From: Verrucomicrobiota bacterium
Lineage (GTDB): Bacteria > Verrucomicrobiota > Verrucomicrobiia > Chthoniobacterales > JAFAMB01
Direction of reading: 5' to 3'
NCBI GenBank assembly: GCA_019247695.1
Contig: JAFBAP010000187.1
Span: 1-55,130, forward strand
DNA length: 55,130 bases
Shown here: positions 585 to 55,130 of the stretch, piece by piece
How positions within the stretch are numbered: the stretch's first letter is position 1
How the letters are laid out: every line of letters begins with the position of its first letter
Notes under the pieces: model-generated
What the model was told of the DNA's origin: nothing
The model's input: only the letters and a program-made list of their open reading frames with translations
The model's database searches: none
Made by a program: the position numbers and the translations under genes

Positions 585-717
585 AATTGCTTTCCGTGGA
601 TTCCCTGGAAGGTGAGGGCATCCCATGTTCGGCCGGTCCTGCAAACTGGATGTAACCGGACGGGCGTGCCGGAGGCGCGTCACGAGGCCAATCCCCCTAC
701 GGCCGCCGTGTGACCTT

Positions 718-876
718 AATCTGTGTCAATCTGTGTAATCTGTGGATGCTTTCCTCTTTTCTGCCTTCTCTGCGTGTTCTGCGGATGATTTAATCTTTCC
801 GCCGTGGTCGCCGTGGCTCGCCGTGTTCGCCGTGTGAACTCTTACGTCGTGCCCGCCACCCCCGCTGTGGCCGCCG
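718..876 (-). repeat. Composite dispersed element, copy A (minus orientation)
   Basis: About 155 bp of non-coding sequence. Read on the minus strand it matches the copy at 54782-54940 almost base for base. It has three blocks. The first is built on CACGGCGACCACGGCGAGCC and ends in GTAAGAGTTCACACGGCG. The second is AATCATCCGCAGAACACGCA followed by a GCAGAAAAG tail. The third is ATCCACAGATTACACAGATT. The ORFs that cross it are repeat readings, not genes. It fills most of the 463-bp gap between the PPOX-like and DUF892 genes. A short GAACCCC-like remnant follows at 889-900. Confidence 0.85.
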
Positions 877-8328: not shown

Positions 8329-8605
8329 AAGGTTCGGCGTTCGGCGTTCGGCGTTTGGAGTTCGGGGCGGCAGCGTACCGGGCGTGGTGCGGTCCCTTTT
8401 TAATCTGCATAATCTGCGTAATCCGTGGATGATTTCTCTCTTCTGCGTCCTTCTGCGGATCCGCCGCTCGCAGCCCTGCCGCCTGGCACGATGTGAGCGT
8501 GGGCGACGGATAATCGTCCTTCCCGCCGTGTTCGCCGTGTCTCGCCGTGGCGCCGTGTGATTCCTCTCCGCTGCGGCCACCGTGTGCCCGAACCCCGAAC
8601 TCCTC
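8329..8605. repeat. Degenerate heptamers and composite-element remnant, copy B
   Basis: Fills most of the gap between divergent genes. Positions 8333-8370 carry GTTCGGC/GTTCGGG 7-bp units. Positions 8401-8461 hold TCTGCNTAATCTGCGTAATC and a GTGGATGATTTCTCT block, followed by CTTCTGCGGAT. Positions 8521-8570 hold GCCGTGTTCGCCGTGTCTCG units. Block order is the same as in copy A but with more divergence and insertions. A final CCCGAACCCCGAACTCC stretch at 8587-8603 runs into the extended N-terminal frame of the next gene. Confidence 0.7.
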
Positions 8606-15224: not shown

Positions 15225-15267
15225 GGCCAACCGTGAGCTGCTTCGCGGCTGAAGCGCCCGGCGGGGC

Positions 15268-15386
15268 GGGTAACGGGTAACGGGTAACGGGTAACGGGTA
15301 ACGGGTAACGGGGGTCGGGTAACGGGGGTCGGGGGTCGGGGGTCGAGTGTGGAGTGTGGAGTGTGGAGTGTGGAGTGTGGAGTGTC
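15268..15386 (+). repeat. Heptamer arrays (GGGTAAC)6, GGGGGTC units and (GAGTGTG)5-6
   Basis: Six perfect GGGTAAC units run from 15268 to 15309. GGGGGTC/GGGTAAC units follow to about 15344. Five perfect GAGTGTG units and one GAGTGTC occupy 15345-15386. Two different 7-bp families are thus fused head to tail. On the plus strand the first part has more than four GGG runs spaced by TAAC, which fits the G-quadruplex pattern. The orientation of GGGTAAC is the same as that of uvrA just upstream. Confidence 0.95.
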
Positions 15387-28723: not shown

Positions 28724-28990
28724 AGTGCCGGGCGTCGGGTGGAGTTCGGAGTTCGGGGTTCGGGGTTCGGAGCGGCGGAGAATGCCGCAAATGAAGAAGT
28801 GGCGAGTAACGAGTAACGAGTAACGAGTAACGGGGGCGAGCTTGGAGGAGAGCCGCCGATGTCAACTCCAAAGTTCCTTTTTCCCCGCCGTGGTCGCCGT
28901 GGTCGCCGTGTGAACTCTTACGTTGTGCCCGCCCCACCCGCTGCGCCCGCCGTGTGACCGTGTGAACTCGTACCCGCCAAACCCGCTGCG
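28724..28990. repeat. Mixed repeat block: heptamers and composite-element copy D
   Basis: 28724-28773 has GGGCGTC, GGAGTTC and GGGGTTC units. 28804-28831 is four perfect GAGTAAC units in gntP orientation. 28885-28990 is the CCGCCGTGGTCGCCGTGG part of the composite element with GTGTGAACTCTTACGTTGTG, in minus orientation, without the CTGTGTAATC part. A short reversed AATGCCGCAAATG unit lies at 28781-28793. No gene is present. Confidence 0.85.
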
Positions 28991-32686: not shown

Positions 32687-33757
32687 ATGAATCCGCCGGC
32701 TTCGGGTGATCAGCTGCCCCGGCGTGGCCGCGGTGCGCCCGGCAACCCGGCCAACCGCTTTGAACGGTCTCACTACGAGGCCGACGAGTTCTGCGAACCG
32801 GCAGACCAACCCTCTGCCATGCCCACGCACCTTTACCCTGATGACGCGCAATCGATCATCGCGTACAACGAAAGCCCGGACGTCGGCTTCGCCGCGAGCG
32901 TAAATCCGTATCGCGGGTGCGAACACGGCTGCATTTATTGTTATGCCCGGCCAACCCACGAATTCCTCGGGTGCTCCGCCGGCCTGGATTTCGAGACCAA
33001 GCTTTTCGTCAAGTACCGGGCGGCAGAACTACTGACTCGGGAGCTGAATGCGCCCGGTTGGCAGCCGCAAACGCTCACGATGAGCGGGGTCACCGACTGC
33101 TACCAACCGGTTGAAGCGAGGCTGAAGATCACGCGGGCATGCCTCGAGGTGCTGGCGGAATTTCGCAACCCGGTATTCATCGTGACCAAGAGCCGGCTGG
33201 TAACGAGGGACATCGACCTTCTGGCCGAACTCGCCGGGTTCGGGGCGGCGGGCGTTTCGATCTCGATCACCACGCTCGACCCGGCGCTCGCGCGGACCAT
33301 GGAGCCGCGGGCAGCGTCACCCGGCGCGCGCCTGGAAGCCATCGAACGCCTCCGGGCAGCCGGGGTGCCGGCGGGCGTCAACTTCGCGCCGGTCATTCCG
33401 GGCTTGAACGACCATGAAGCGCCGGCTTTGCTCAGCGCTGCCGCCCGGGCCGGCGCGCAGTTCGCCGGTATGACGATGATCCGGCTGCCGTTGGCGGTAG
33501 CCCCGCTGTTTACTGAATGGCTGGAACGGCATTACCCGGATCGGAAAGAAAAAATCCTTGGCCGGATCCGCTCCATGCGCGACGGCAAACTCAACTCGAC
33601 CCGGTTCGGCGACCGGATGCGCGGGCACGGACCGGTGGCGGAACAAATCCGGCAATTATTCAAGGTCAGCTGCCGGCGGGCAGGCCTGACGCGCATCTCG
33701 GATCTCAGCACCGCCGCGTTCCGGCGCAGCGACCGTGGCCAATTGGAACTCTGGTAA
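32687..33757 (+). CDS. PA0069-type radical SAM protein
   Basis: 356-residue radical SAM enzyme of the PA0069 family, related to spore photoproduct lyase. The cluster motif is C78-EHG-C82-IY-C85 in NPYRGCEHGCIYCYARPTHE. LTMSGVTDCYQPVEARLKIT, IVTKSRLVTRDIDLL, ISITTLDPALARTMEPR and NFAPVIPGLNDHE are family blocks. The reaction is unknown; proteins of this group are often described as possible DNA-repair factors because of the lyase similarity. It ends with TGGTAACACCG, so the TAA stop is the first part of the repeat block that follows. Confidence 0.9.
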   Translation: MNPPASGDQLPRRGRGAPGNPANRFERSHYEADEFCEPADQPSAMPTHLYPDDAQSIIAYNESPDVGFAASVNPYRGCEHGCIYCYARPTHEFLGCSAGLDFETKLFVKYRAAELLTRELNAPGWQPQTLTMSGVTDCYQPVEARLKITRACLEVLAEFRNPVFIVTKSRLVTRDIDLLAELAGFGAAGVSISITTLDPALARTMEPRAASPGARLEAIERLRAAGVPAGVNFAPVIPGLNDHEAPALLSAAARAGAQFAGMTMIRLPLAVAPLFTEWLERHYPDRKEKILGRIRSMRDGKLNSTRFGDRMRGHGPVAEQIRQLFKVSCRRAGLTRISDLSTAAFRRSDRGQLELW

Positions 33758-33760
33758 CAC

Positions 33761-34004
33761 CGTCACACGGTCACACGGCGGCCACAGCGATTTGGCGGGC
33801 ACAACGTAAGAGTTCACACGGCGAACACGGCGAGCCACGGCGACCACGGCGGGAAGAGGGGGGAAAGAGTTTGGAGTTCGGAGTTCGGGGTTCGGAGCTC
33901 GGAGGCGTCGTAGAACCACGTCCGATCTCCCCGGAGGGTCACGTTCACACGGTGCGAAGACCGAATCATCCGCAGAACACGCAGAGAACGCAGAAAAAGA
34001 TCCA
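33761..34004 (+). repeat. Composite dispersed element, copy F, interrupted by heptamers
   Basis: 33761-33853 is the GTCACACGG/GCGGGCACAACGTAAGAG/CACGGCGAACACGGCG part. 33964-34000 is AATCATCCGCAGAACACGCA with the GCAGAAAAAG tail. Between them are TTTGGAGTTCGGAGTTCGGG heptamers (33870-33904) and about 55 bp of other sequence. Block order and orientation match the copy at 54782-54940, where the two parts are adjacent. This reads as one element split by a later heptamer insertion. Confidence 0.8.
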
Positions 34005-34046
34005 CGAAACCGGAGCTTGACACCGGCAACTCGCCCCCATGCTGCC

Positions 34047-34154
34047 GCTCCGAACTCCGAACTCCGAACTCCGAACTCCGAACTCCGAACTCCGAACTCC
34101 GAACTCCGAACTCCGAACTCCGAACTCCGAACTCCGAACTCCGAACTCCGAACG
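34047..34154 (+). repeat. (GAACTCC)14 heptamer array
   Basis: Fourteen perfect GAACTCC units (34052-34149) with degenerate ends. The left flank CCCCCAT-CTGCCGCTCC is shared, with one difference, by the array at 55002. GAACTCC has no stop codon in any of the six frames, so long repetitive ORFs appear here that are not genes. Confidence 0.97.
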
Positions 34155-34186
34155 CTTTCCCCTTCTTCCTCTTCCTCTTCGTCTTC

Positions 34187-34345
34187 CCGCCGTGGTCGCC
34201 GCGGCCCGCCGTGTTCGCCGTGTGAACTCTTCCGTTGTGCCCGCCCTCCTCACTGTGCCCGCCCTCCTCACTGTGCCCGCCCTCCTAACTGTGCCCCCCG
34301 TGTTACCGTGTGAACGCAGTCGTTGTGCCCGCCGTGTAACCGGCA
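34187..34345 (-). repeat. Composite element copy G (inverted) with an 18-bp triplication
   Basis: Minus-orientation GCCGTGGTCGCC...GCCGTGTTCGCCGTGTGAAC block, followed by three tandem 18-bp units GTGCCCGCCCTCCTCACT at 34237, 34255 and 34273 (the last with one change), then GTGTAACCGG. With copy F it forms an inverted pair flanking the (GAACTCC)14 array. Confidence 0.85.
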
Positions 34346-34364
34346 CTCGGCACCCGGCACTCTC

Positions 34365-37402: not shown

Positions 37403-37437
37403 ACCCGACACCCGACACCCGACACCCGTTCCCGTTA
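37403..37437 (-). repeat. ACCCGAC heptamers running into a stop codon
   Basis: Three perfect ACCCGAC units (37403-37423), then ACCCGTT and CCCGTTACCG. On the minus strand the last unit reads CGGTAACGGG and supplies the TAA stop of the acyltransferase gene. Confidence 0.9.
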
Positions 37438-47277: not shown

Positions 47278-49425
47278 ATGGCCGTGAGCGGCAATCTCCG
47301 TTGCGAACTTCTTGATTCCGGCGTTGCCGTCCTGACGTTTGATCGTCCGGACTCCGCCGCCAACATTTTTGACCAGCCGACTTTCGACGAACTCAACCAG
47401 CAACTCGAGTCGCTGGAGGCGAAGGGCGGGAGCCTCAAGGGGCTGGTCCTCCGGAGCGCGAAACCCAGGATCTTCATTGCGGGTGCAGACCTGAATGGGT
47501 TCAGCCGGGAACGCGATCCGCAACGCCTGGGCCGCTTGATTGACCAAGGCCAGCAGACTTTCGACCGGATCGCCCGCCTGCCGTTCCCGACCGCAGCAGC
47601 CATTCACGGCGTTGCCTTGGGAGGCGGCCTGGAAATCGCGCTGGCCTGCGATTACCGGGTGGCTTCCCTGGATTCCGCAACCAAGCTGGGCCTTCCGGAA
47701 ACCAACCTCGGCATTCTGCCAGCCTGGGGCGGCTCGACCCGCCTGCCGCGGCTGATCGGTTTGCCTGCCGCGCTCGAGATGATTTTAGCCGGAAAACAGC
47801 ACGCCGCGAAACCTGCGCTCAAGATCGGGTTGGTCGACGGCGTGGCTTACCCGGAACGGATCCTCGCCGAAGCCGTAAAACTCGTGCTCCAGGGCAAAAA
47901 GCGCCGCCTCAAACCTCACCTGGCCAACCGGGCTCCCCTCTCCAAGGTGATCGCGGCGCAGGCGCGAAAACGGGTCCTGGCAAAGACGCGGGGTAATTAC
48001 CCCGCTCCCCTCAAAGCGTTGGAGGTTGCCGTGGCGGGGCTGACATCATCGCCCGCGCAATCGCTTGCCAATGAGCGGCGCGAGTTTATCAACCTGGCGA
48101 TGGGCGAGCCGGCCGCTAGCCTGATCCGGGTATTCTTCCTGCAGGAACGGGCAAAGAAGCTGGCGGTCGAATCCGCGGAAAAGCCGTTGCCGGTCAGGCG
48201 GGCCATGGTGGTCGGCGCCGGCATTATGGGTTCCGGGATCGCGCAATGGCTCAGCGCGCGCGGGCTGCGGGTCGTGCTGAAGGACATCGGGCCCGAGCCG
48301 CTCGGCAAAGGCATGCAGGCCATCGCCAAGCTTTATCGTGACGCGGTTAAACGGCGCATCTTTACCGAAGCGGAAGCCCGCGCCGGGTCTGACCGCATCC
48401 TGCCGGTATTTGAGGACAACATCCCGCTGCACGATGTTGATCTTGTAATTGAGGCCGCCGTCGAAAAACTGGATCTGAAATGCCAGGTGTTCCGCCAACT
48501 TGAGGAAAAGGTTCCGTTCTGCCGGGTGCTGGCCACCAACACCTCGGCGCTGTCGATCGACGCCATCGCGGACGGCCTGCCGCATCCGGAAAAAGTGGTC
48601 GGCATCCATTTCTTCAACCCCGTCCACCGGATGCAACTGGTGGAGATCGTGCGGGGCCCGCGCACGGGTCCGCTTGCGCTGGCTACCGCCGTGCAGCTCG
48701 CGAAAGCCATCGGCAAACTGCCCGTCCTCGTGAAGGACAGCCCGGGCTTTCTCGTTAACCGCATCCTGTTGCCTTACCTGATAGAGGCGGTTCGTATTTT
48801 CCAGGAAGGTTATCCGGCGGAGCGCATCGACCGCCTCATGCTCGACTTCGGGATGCCGATGGGGCCGCTCCGCCTCGGCGACGAAGTCGGGCTCGACGTC
48901 GCGGCCCACGTCGCCACGGATCTGACTCAGCGGCTTTCCCATCTCCCTCCGGTTAACGCCGTCCTGCCGCGCATGCTCGAGAAAGGCTGGCTGGGCCGCA
49001 AATCGGGAAAGGGCTTTTACGATTACCAGACCAAAGGCAAGGAGACGCTCAACTCCCAATTGAACGAATTTCAGGCGCTGCAGGCGCCCCAGGTCGACGA
49101 CGCTGAACTCCGGGACCGCATGGTCCTGCTGATGGTGAACGAGGCGGCCCGGTGCCTGGAGGAGGGCGTGGTGACCGCTCCGGAGGATGTCGATTTCGGC
49201 ATGATCATGGGGACGGGCTGGGCACCGTTCCGCGGCGGCCCGCTGAATTACGCGGATTCCACCAGTCTGCCGGCCGTCGTCGCCCGTTTGCAGGAACTAC
49301 AGAAACGCGTCGGCAATTACTTCGCCCCTTGCGCTCTCCTGGCCGACAAAGCCGCGCGGGGGGACCGCTTTTACGCTTCGGCGCCCGGGCCTGAATCGAG
49401 TGCCGGTGGTCCGCCGCAATCCTGA
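47278..49425 (+). CDS. Bifunctional enoyl-CoA hydratase / 3-hydroxyacyl-CoA dehydrogenase (FadB/FadJ type)
   Basis: 715-residue multifunctional beta-oxidation enzyme. Residues about 1-190 form the crotonase domain: FIAGADLNGF (oxyanion loop), HGVALGGGLEIALACDYRVA and KLGLPETNLGILPAWGGSTR, with its catalytic Glu residues. From about 310 the NAD domain follows: AMVVGAGIMGSGIAQWLSAR, ATNTSALSIDAIADGLPHPE, VVGIHFFNPVHRMQLVEI and DSPGFLVNRIL. The C-terminal double 3HCDH domain ends at GWAPFRGGPLNYAD. The alpha partner of the adjacent thiolase. Confidence 0.95.
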   Translation: MAVSGNLRCELLDSGVAVLTFDRPDSAANIFDQPTFDELNQQLESLEAKGGSLKGLVLRSAKPRIFIAGADLNGFSRERDPQRLGRLIDQGQQTFDRIARLPFPTAAAIHGVALGGGLEIALACDYRVASLDSATKLGLPETNLGILPAWGGSTRLPRLIGLPAALEMILAGKQHAAKPALKIGLVDGVAYPERILAEAVKLVLQGKKRRLKPHLANRAPLSKVIAAQARKRVLAKTRGNYPAPLKALEVAVAGLTSSPAQSLANERREFINLAMGEPAASLIRVFFLQERAKKLAVESAEKPLPVRRAMVVGAGIMGSGIAQWLSARGLRVVLKDIGPEPLGKGMQAIAKLYRDAVKRRIFTEAEARAGSDRILPVFEDNIPLHDVDLVIEAAVEKLDLKCQVFRQLEEKVPFCRVLATNTSALSIDAIADGLPHPEKVVGIHFFNPVHRMQLVEIVRGPRTGPLALATAVQLAKAIGKLPVLVKDSPGFLVNRILLPYLIEAVRIFQEGYPAERIDRLMLDFGMPMGPLRLGDEVGLDVAAHVATDLTQRLSHLPPVNAVLPRMLEKGWLGRKSGKGFYDYQTKGKETLNSQLNEFQALQAPQVDDAELRDRMVLLMVNEAARCLEEGVVTAPEDVDFGMIMGTGWAPFRGGPLNYADSTSLPAVVARLQELQKRVGNYFAPCALLADKAARGDRFYASAPGPESSAGGPPQS

Positions 49426-49440: not shown

Positions 49441-51480
49441 ATGAAAGAAACGTTGTCCAAACCTGCGCTCAACCTGGATCGCCCCTTGCCGGACGCCCCT
49501 CCGGACCGGCCCCCGCAAGGGCCGGTCTTTCCGCCGATCGAACGCAAACCGGTCGCGTTTGAGGTCAGAGCGTTACAAGCCTTGCTCGACGGCGAGTTTG
49601 CCGAGACCAGGACCATGGTCAAAAATCTGGTGTCGCAGTTTTCCTACGATGACGGCCTGGACGTGCCCGCCTACCGCGCCAAAGTGCTGGCCTGGACCGT
49701 TAGCCTCGCTGAAGCCGGACTCGGCCGCATTTTCATCCCACGCGAACTGGGCGGCGAAGAAAATCTGCCGAAGTTCATCGCCGCCTTTGAAGCCCTGGCG
49801 TTCCACGACCTCAGCCTGGTCATCAAGGTCGGCGTGCAGTTCGGATTATTTGCCGGGAGCATCCAGCGACTGGGAACCGAATACCATCGCCGCAAATACC
49901 TGGTGGACGCCGTGACAGCACGCCTGCCGGGCTGCTTTGCCATGACGGAGATCGGTCACGGGTCAAACGTGCAGGGGCTCGAAACCACGGCCGTGTACGA
50001 TCGCGCGACGGACGCGTTTATCATCAACAGCCCTTCCTATTCGTCCGGGAAAACTTATATCGGCAACGCCGGCGAACATGGACGCCTGGCGACGGTCTTT
50101 GCCCAACTCGAGGTAAACGGCGAGCGGCACGGCGTGCATGCGTTTCTGGTCCCGATCCGGGACGAGGCCGGTCACCCGCTGCCGGGCATCACCACTGCAG
50201 ATAACGGCCTGAAAATGGGCCTGAACGGGGTCGACAACGGTCAACTCTGGTTTGACCACGTCCGGGTGCCGCGGCTCGAAATGCTGAACCGCTTTGCCGA
50301 AGTCACCCCGGAGGGCGTTTACCGCAGCGAAATCAAGAGCGCCAGCGCCCGCTTTTTCACCATGATCGGCACCCTCGTGACCGGACGGATAAGCATCGCG
50401 GCCACGGCCAACAGCGCCGCCAAATCCGCGCTGACGATCGCGATCCGCTACGCGGCGCGCCGGCGCCAGTTCGGACCGCCGAAAGCCGGCCGGGAAACGC
50501 TGCTCCTGGATTACCCCGCACACCAGACGAGGCTGATGCCCCTCCTGGCGAACGCCTATGCACTCGACTTCGCTTTGAAACGCCTCGTACGGCTGAACGA
50601 AAAGGCAACGCCGGGCAATTCCCGCGACGTCGAAACGCTGGCGGCAGCCCTAAAGGCTTTTGTCACCTGGAATACCACCAAAACCATTCAAACCTGCCGG
50701 GAAAGTTGCGGGGGCGAAGGCTACATGGCGGTGAACCGGTTTGCCGCGCTGAAGGCCGACACCGACGTCTACGCTACGTTCGAAGGTGACAACACGGTGC
50801 TGATGCAACTCGTCGCCAAAAACCTGCTCACCGAGTTCGGCGATAAATTAAAGCATCTGCGTCCGGCGCAGCTGGCTGGTTTTTTTGTCCGGCGAAAGTT
50901 TGCCCAGGTGGTAAAGCAGAGCCCGCACTTATGCCTGAACGTTGCCAAGGAGCATCTGCTCGATCCGGCCGTGCAGCAGATGTATTTCAAGTATCGCGAG
51001 GACGCATTGTTGTCGAAAATTGCGCAGCTGTTTCGCCGGGTGCTTTCATCTGAACAGGCCGCTGACCCGAACCCCGAACGCCGAACCCCGAACCCCGAAC
51101 GCCGAACTCCGAACGCCGAACTCCGAACCCCGAACTCCGCTTCCTACACGGCCTTTACTCGTTTGCAGCCCGAATTGCTCGAACTGGCGCACGCCTACTC
51201 GGAGCGGATCATCCTGGAGTATTTCACGGAGGCGATCGCCGGGGTCGAAAACCGGCCGCTGCAGGCCGTACTCAAGCGGATGGCGGACCTGTTTGCCCTG
51301 ACGCACCTCGACGAGCATCGAGCCTGGTACCTGGAACAGGGTGTTTTCACGACCGCGAAAAGCGGCGCCATCCGTGCCGTCGCGCTCAGGTTGTGCCGCG
51401 ACCTCAGCCAGGAGGCCGTCGCCTTGGTCGATGCGTTCGGCATTCCGGATGCGTGCCTTGCCGCGCCGATCGCGCTTTAA
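49441..51480 (+). CDS. Acyl-CoA dehydrogenase/oxidase family protein with embedded heptamer repeat
   Basis: 679-residue flavoenzyme catalysing the first step of beta-oxidation. Features: GCFAMTEIGHGSNVQGLETT, FSYDDGLDV..., TGRISIAATANSAAKSALTI and RETLLLDYPAHQTRLMPLLA. The catalytic-region motif CGGEGYMAVNRFAALKADTD with TFEGDNTVLMQLVAKNLL is characteristic of the acyl-CoA oxidase branch, so the electron acceptor may be oxygen or an ETF. Residues 542-567 are encoded by ten GAAC-type heptamers (51069-51138) and read RTPNPER/RTPNAEL repeats. They sit between the catalytic domain and the C-terminal helical domain, and the frame is kept. Confidence 0.88.
   Translation: MKETLSKPALNLDRPLPDAPPDRPPQGPVFPPIERKPVAFEVRALQALLDGEFAETRTMVKNLVSQFSYDDGLDVPAYRAKVLAWTVSLAEAGLGRIFIPRELGGEENLPKFIAAFEALAFHDLSLVIKVGVQFGLFAGSIQRLGTEYHRRKYLVDAVTARLPGCFAMTEIGHGSNVQGLETTAVYDRATDAFIINSPSYSSGKTYIGNAGEHGRLATVFAQLEVNGERHGVHAFLVPIRDEAGHPLPGITTADNGLKMGLNGVDNGQLWFDHVRVPRLEMLNRFAEVTPEGVYRSEIKSASARFFTMIGTLVTGRISIAATANSAAKSALTIAIRYAARRRQFGPPKAGRETLLLDYPAHQTRLMPLLANAYALDFALKRLVRLNEKATPGNSRDVETLAAALKAFVTWNTTKTIQTCRESCGGEGYMAVNRFAALKADTDVYATFEGDNTVLMQLVAKNLLTEFGDKLKHLRPAQLAGFFVRRKFAQVVKQSPHLCLNVAKEHLLDPAVQQMYFKYREDALLSKIAQLFRRVLSSEQAADPNPERRTPNPERRTPNAELRTPNSASYTAFTRLQPELLELAHAYSERIILEYFTEAIAGVENRPLQAVLKRMADLFALTHLDEHRAWYLEQGVFTTAKSGAIRAVALRLCRDLSQEAVALVDAFGIPDACLAAPIAL
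51069..51138 (+). repeat. Coding heptamer array (GAACCCC/GAACGCC/GAACTCC)10
   Basis: Ten consecutive 7-bp units GAAC(C/G/T)CC, variable only at the fifth base, inside the acyl-CoA dehydrogenase ORF. The unit is that of the intergenic arrays at 34052 and 55002. Every 21 bp (three units) encode one 7-residue repeat, RTPN[AP]E[RL]. Confidence 0.95.
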
Positions 51481-51899: not shown

Positions 51900-51992
51900 A
51901 AAACACCTGAGCGGCACCTCAGCACTTTTTATGCTCACAACCGAAAAATTCGACGCAGATCTGCAATTCCCGGATTTCGCATGACTCGCGAC

Positions 51993-52034
51993 ACCCGGCA
52001 CCCGGCACTCGACACCCGGCACCCGACACCCGAC
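51993..52034. repeat. ACCCGGC/ACCCGAC heptamers just upstream of malate synthase
   Basis: Six contiguous 7-bp units: ACCCGGC, ACCCGGC, ACTCGAC, ACCCGGC, ACCCGAC, ACCCGAC. The last ends 10 nt before the ATG of the malate synthase gene. No Shine-Dalgarno sequence is visible in the remaining space. Confidence 0.95.
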
Positions 52035-52044
52035 ACTACTTCCC

Positions 52045-54940: not shown

Positions 54941-55001
54941 AAGAGGACCGGGCGGCAACTCTAAGGTTGACACTCGCACCTAACCCCCATCCTGCCGCTC
55001 C

Positions 55002-55120
55002 GAACTCCGAACTCCGAACTCCGAACTCCGAACTCCGAACTCCGAACTCCGAACTCCGAACTCCGAACTCCGAACTCCGAACTCCGAACTCCGAACTCCG
55101 AACTCCGAACTCCGAACTCC
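55002..55120 (+). repeat. (GAACTCC)17 heptamer array at the window edge
   Basis: Seventeen perfect units, preceded by CCCCCATCCTGCCGCTCC, nearly identical to the left flank of the array at 34047. It is the longest array in the window, and flanking sequence on its right is cut off after GACCTCTTTC. Confidence 0.97.
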
Positions 55121-55130
55121 GACCTCTTTC

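Follow-up and report, generated by a model that had tools for sequence, protein, structure and literature searches.

An in-frame heptamer array in an acyl-CoA oxidase-type gene of a Verrucomicrobiota bacterium is a probable remnant of a dispersed composite element

The stretch of DNA analyzed here (the window, 55,130 nucleotides from a Verrucomicrobiota bacterium) carries a gene for an acyl-CoA oxidase-type enzyme that is interrupted, in frame, by a short array of heptameric repeats (Table 1). Pfam matches to Acyl-CoA_dh_N/M, ACOX_C_alpha1 (PF22924, residues 310-463, 153.6 bits against a cut-off of 27), and ACOX (PF01756, residues 567-678, 77.7 bits against a cut-off of 22.1) all lie above their cut-offs, and the core of the enzyme is intact, including the invariant FEGDN block. 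The first-pass annotation had called the protein an acyl-CoA dehydrogenase. This label is broadly right, but Pfam groups the protein with the acyl-CoA oxidases, and its predicted type is thus that of an oxidase rather than a plain dehydrogenase. The FadJ/FadB-like gene upstream is separated from it by a gap of just 15 bases and is its probable operon partner; the product of this neighbor scores 617 bits with the FadJ model, short of the 869 bits required for an equivalog. Downstream lies a gene for malate synthase A.

Table 1. Coordinates of the genes, repeats, and elements discussed in the text (positions in the window).
Feature	Position	Strand	Basis or remarks
FadJ/FadB-like multifunctional beta-oxidation protein, upstream neighbor	47278..49425	+	NCBIfam NF008363
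Acyl-CoA oxidase-type gene, 679 aa, intact	49441..51480	+	Pfam; best PDB relatives are acyl-CoA oxidases
Insert of ~26 codons relative to all homologs outside the genus	51063..51140 (boundaries +/- few bases)	+	Segment lengths, alignment
Heptamer units GAAC(C/G/T)CC, 10 full	51069-51138	+	TRF and direct reading; at most 2 identical neighbors
C-terminal ACOX helical domain	51141..51480	+	Frame depends on array; dN 0.049, dS 0.582; pLDDT mostly >90
Composite element, example: nonamer blocks, inverted heptamer array, CGCAGAAAA block, forward heptamers x15, nonamers	33816..34223 (within 33753-34362)	.	TRF, sequence
Second composite element, heptamer array of 18 units, contig end	54823..55126	.	TRF, sequence

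The array itself was delimited by TRF at positions 51066-51139 (period 7, 10.6 copies, 88% match), with partial units at its flanks. It is read in the same frame as the open reading frame of the gene and encodes the peptide ...PNPERRTPNPERRTPNAELRTPNS. TRF, direct reading, and the reading frame together confirm the initial claim that ten in-frame GAAC(C/G/T)CC units lie in an intact gene, and the further claim that intergenic arrays are built on the same unit also holds, because arrays at 34048-34153 and 54998-55126 contain it. A GCCGCT motif precedes the heptamers in the gene and is also present ahead of intergenic arrays. The commonest unit accounts for four of the ten, and a higher-order periodicity of 21 bases (three units) was not significant in this array when unit order was shuffled (P = 0.44). 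Tandem arrays with other units of seven bases (CGGGTAA, GAGTGTG, ACCCGAC, and CGACACC) occur elsewhere in the window, at 15267-15385, 37403-37428, and 51989-52036.

Comparison with homologs reveals that the array lies within an insertion. Measured from conserved R519 to conserved Q576, the segment comprises 58 amino acids in the window protein and 81 in its counterpart from the only other known species of the genus (hereafter the genus-mate), compared with 29-33 in 26 homologs from Verrucomicrobiota, Bacteroidetes, Actinobacteria, and other groups. When family members and other homologs are aligned, these two proteins alone show additional residues in the interval from LSSEQA to SYTAF. The insert is absent from nine other family members, from further homologs, and from the window genome's own paralog (C127, 66% identical). 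The insertion is real, restricted to the genus, and variable in both length and content, and the peptides of the two inserts have little in common beyond a few residues of the heptapeptide. Its location had been proposed as residues 542-567, to be checked by alignment with homologs, and the alignment places it at about those residues, which the outgroups lack. Two observations had been named in advance as arguing against the proposal, namely homologs that have the same residues without heptamer coding and an array length that is fixed across distant lineages. Both were looked for; the homologs are without the residues, and the length of the insert is not fixed.

Heptamers of this type are numerous in the window genome. 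Three consecutive units are matched 876 times, compared with zero matches to a reversed control pattern, and the repeat is therefore not a product of chance. The same pattern is matched 14 times in the genus-mate, 0-25 times in other family members, and almost never in the rest of the order. These numbers suggest either a recent massive expansion in the window lineage or loss of copies from fragmented assemblies. To place the arrays relative to genes, we surveyed 1.94 Mb (37% of the genome) in sampled stretches, which are not random because some were picked for bearing arrays. About 79% of the surveyed DNA is coding according to a simple codon-usage gene caller, whose calls are approximate. 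Nearly all of the 187 arrays of at least three units found in this DNA are intergenic. Random placement would put about 149 of them in genes, whereas only the array described here is convincingly located inside a gene, and four others overlap the ends of called genes. A three-unit candidate in a gene (L224:1630) was rejected as degenerate and probably due to chance. Long open frames that run through arrays (C129, C80, C77, C134, and others) were likewise rejected as in-gene cases, given that a positive coding score was obtained on no more than one flank of the array.

Several other features of the arrays were noticed. At the sampled loci of the window genome, 39 of 117 classified arrays lie between convergent genes, compared with 218 of 1450 gene pairs (Fisher P about 2e-7, with arrays that are not independent). 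This enrichment would be consistent with arrays that act where transcripts end or that simply stay clear of promoters. Many contigs stop in or near a heptamer array, including the window (54998-55126) and L119, L128, L146, L197, L206, L254, and others. Because the assembly breaks at these arrays, the array counts are probably underestimates. In the genus-mate, contig C196 (L141:405-467) carries a nine-unit array immediately before a glycosyltransferase-like gene, whose frame it shares. An ATG precedes this array, which may form an N-terminal extension of the encoded protein.

Most long arrays of the window genome are part of one composite element, with the consensus flanks CCATGMTGCCGCTCC[GAACTCC]n TTCC..CCGCCGTGG. 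Its blocks are the nonamers CACGGCGAC, CGCAGAAAA, and CACAGATTA together with heptamer arrays, and a further heptamer array in inverted orientation often lies at a distance of 50-250 bases. In addition to the examples listed in Table 1, the element occurs at window positions 717-834, 8332-8558, and 28741-28965, and in L177 at about 1350-1650. No match to an Rfam RNA family was found in the window between 33600 and 55130.

The insert of the genus-mate is a partial copy of this dispersed intergenic element, in which a linker joins a CACGGCG-type nonamer block to the heptamers that follow. Dispersed copies from the two genomes match this insert at 74-81% over stretches of about 77-88 bases. The closest of them (G001:C400:2375-2451, 81% over 77 bases) is intergenic and has the same nonamer-linker-heptamer junction, which includes 21 bases that are identical. 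When the DNA of the two species is aligned, the preceding CGCT and the heptamer block fall at one site, and the two gaps, of 78 and 9 bases, are both multiples of 3.

We consider it likely, with a probability of roughly 0.83, that the array in the gene is a remnant of the dispersed composite element, which entered in the ancestor of the genus and has been tolerated while selection kept its total length a multiple of 3. According to this proposal, an intergenic element composed of a nonamer block, a linker, and GAACNCC heptamers would have entered the acyl-CoA oxidase gene at a turn between two helices in the C-terminal region. An in-frame total length would have produced a hydrophilic, disordered loop that the enzyme could tolerate. 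Selection would then have held the total length at a multiple of 3, made up of heptamers only in the window species and of nonamers plus heptamers in the genus-mate. A single ancestral insertion, after which the window lineage lost the nonamer block through an in-frame deletion, appears to be the simplest reading of the two sequences. With only two species carrying an insert, this history is not firmly distinguishable from one in which a permissive turn received an insertion independently in each species.

It is quite unlikely that the array arose within the gene, through slippage on a short GAAC-like seed and independently of the intergenic elements. The window insert is indeed almost pure heptamer, and its resemblance to the flank of the element is limited to the GCCGCT motif. 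However, its unit is identical to that of the dispersed element, the genus-mate insert at the same site has the nonamers and linker of the element, and outgroups have no corresponding residues.

The proposed tolerance of element-derived DNA can be related to the repeat unit, which lacks stop codons in all six frames. Because 7 is coprime with 3, the repeat encodes one stop-free heptapeptide that is identical in all three forward frames. Therefore, any in-frame total length yields an uninterrupted polar, proline-rich loop. The AlphaFold2 model of the window protein (mean pLDDT 86) has a helix at residues 509-541, a loop at 542-565 with pLDDT of about 46-56, and helices from residue 566. The structure prediction recommended by the first-pass annotation as a check for a surface loop thus returned a low-confidence coil between two confident helices, which is predicted to be disordered. 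The earlier description of the array as an evolving linker is also largely right, in that the insert is made of the intergenic unit, forms a predicted disordered loop, and differs in length in the genus-mate.

Relative to the genus-mate, dN/dS is 0.12 before the insert (0.069/0.597) and 0.08 after it (values in Table 1), which indicates that the domain 3' of the array is under purifying selection. This conservation suggests that the extra loop is tolerated by the enzyme, and the loop is presumably neutral for catalysis. There is a low probability that the loop has instead a selected role, for example as a proline-rich charged linker that alters oxidase dimer contacts or the binding of a partner. 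Such a role would be compatible with an origin from the element, and the insert has been kept in both species over a dS of about 0.6 even though the sequences differ. Yet the two inserts share few heptapeptide residues, and the model shows a low-confidence coil. An adjustable linker, whereby element-derived DNA keeps remodeling a loop of a beta-oxidation enzyme in frame-preserving steps and with functional effect, in a genus that has undergone massive expansion of the composite element, is a speculative and rather unlikely extension.

Changes in array length had also been proposed to switch the gene between full-length and truncated forms. Because 7 is not divisible by 3, changes of one or two units do break the frame, and changes of three units preserve it. 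The predicted products are not both truncations, however: loss of one unit gives a truncated protein of 617 residues, but gain of one gives a longer protein of 817 residues with a nonsense tail. Slippage that alternates the 679-residue product with these frameshifted forms would have a precedent in Haemophilus influenzae, for which frameshifting heptanucleotide tracts within reading frames are reported (PMC2651432), but such a phase-variable switch is highly improbable here. Phase-variation tracts feature uniform tandem units that are able to slip, and the array in the gene does not have them; it ranks among the least uniform of the genome, with no more than 2 identical units in a row, compared with a median of 10 among 61 arrays of at least eight units. 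The two species, which have diverged by ~0.6 at synonymous sites, both keep the frame, and the domain encoded downstream is conserved. The genus-mate insert represents a piece of the composite element and not an expansion of the array, and the two species differ by a nonamer block and 9 bases, not by whole heptamer units. Finally, the gene is catabolic and sits beside a FadJ-like gene, and its product is not a surface antigen. The array is probably not an on/off switch.

Rickettsia palindromic elements (RPEs) provide a known parallel. RPEs occur in frame in protein genes, and an RPE-bearing guanylate kinase is translated and active (reviewed in PMC2229807). The element described here is similarly a small dispersed repeat that is both intergenic and tolerated in frame inside a conserved enzyme, and its extra peptide is absent from orthologs while the frame is kept. 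RPEs, in contrast, are palindromes of 105-146 bp, whereas the insert consists of tandem heptamers that are probably left over from a composite element, with only one clear intragenic case. Membership in the RPE sequence family is ruled out by the different phylum and by an insert that is tandem and non-palindromic.

Heptamer repeats are also known from other bacteria. In Beggiatoaceae, Cyanobacteria, and Bacteroidetes, TAACTGA direct repeats are intergenic throughout the genome, and the few that fall in reading frames mostly encode the ends of proteins (PMC4679880). They share with GAACNCC the intergenic arrays across the genome and the occasional copies in reading frames. However, forward TAACTGA copies contain stops in all frames and sit just before start codons, whereas GAACNCC is stop-free in both directions, belongs to a larger composite element, and is here internal to a conserved enzyme. 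The GGGAATC and GGGGA(C/T)T heptamers of Xanthomonas and Nostoc form many intergenic tracts and are under-represented in coding regions (PMC4692102). These heptamers have been shown to form G-quadruplexes in vitro, and their units differ from GAACNCC. The heptanucleotide tracts of H. influenzae, for which a potential role in phase variation has been described (PMC2651432), are likewise 7-base units in or before genes that can shift the frame. Those tracts vary between strains and are found mainly in or before surface-protein genes, whereas the array described here is heterogeneous, lies in a catabolic enzyme, and is in frame in both species. The case therefore behaves like RPEs and the TAACTGA and Xanthomonas/Nostoc repeats, and it lacks the uniform tract of the Haemophilus system.

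A limited literature search, which is no proof of novelty, found no report of such heptamers or of the composite element in Verrucomicrobiota. Small repeats that a protein loop accommodates in frame are of a kind already known, and the Verrucomicrobiota example is new. It is a clean natural example from this phylum of noncoding repeat DNA turned into protein sequence, in which a stop-free 7-base unit is retained, in frame, at a helix-helix turn in a conserved enzyme. The case also shows that the same repeats are otherwise strongly excluded from genes.
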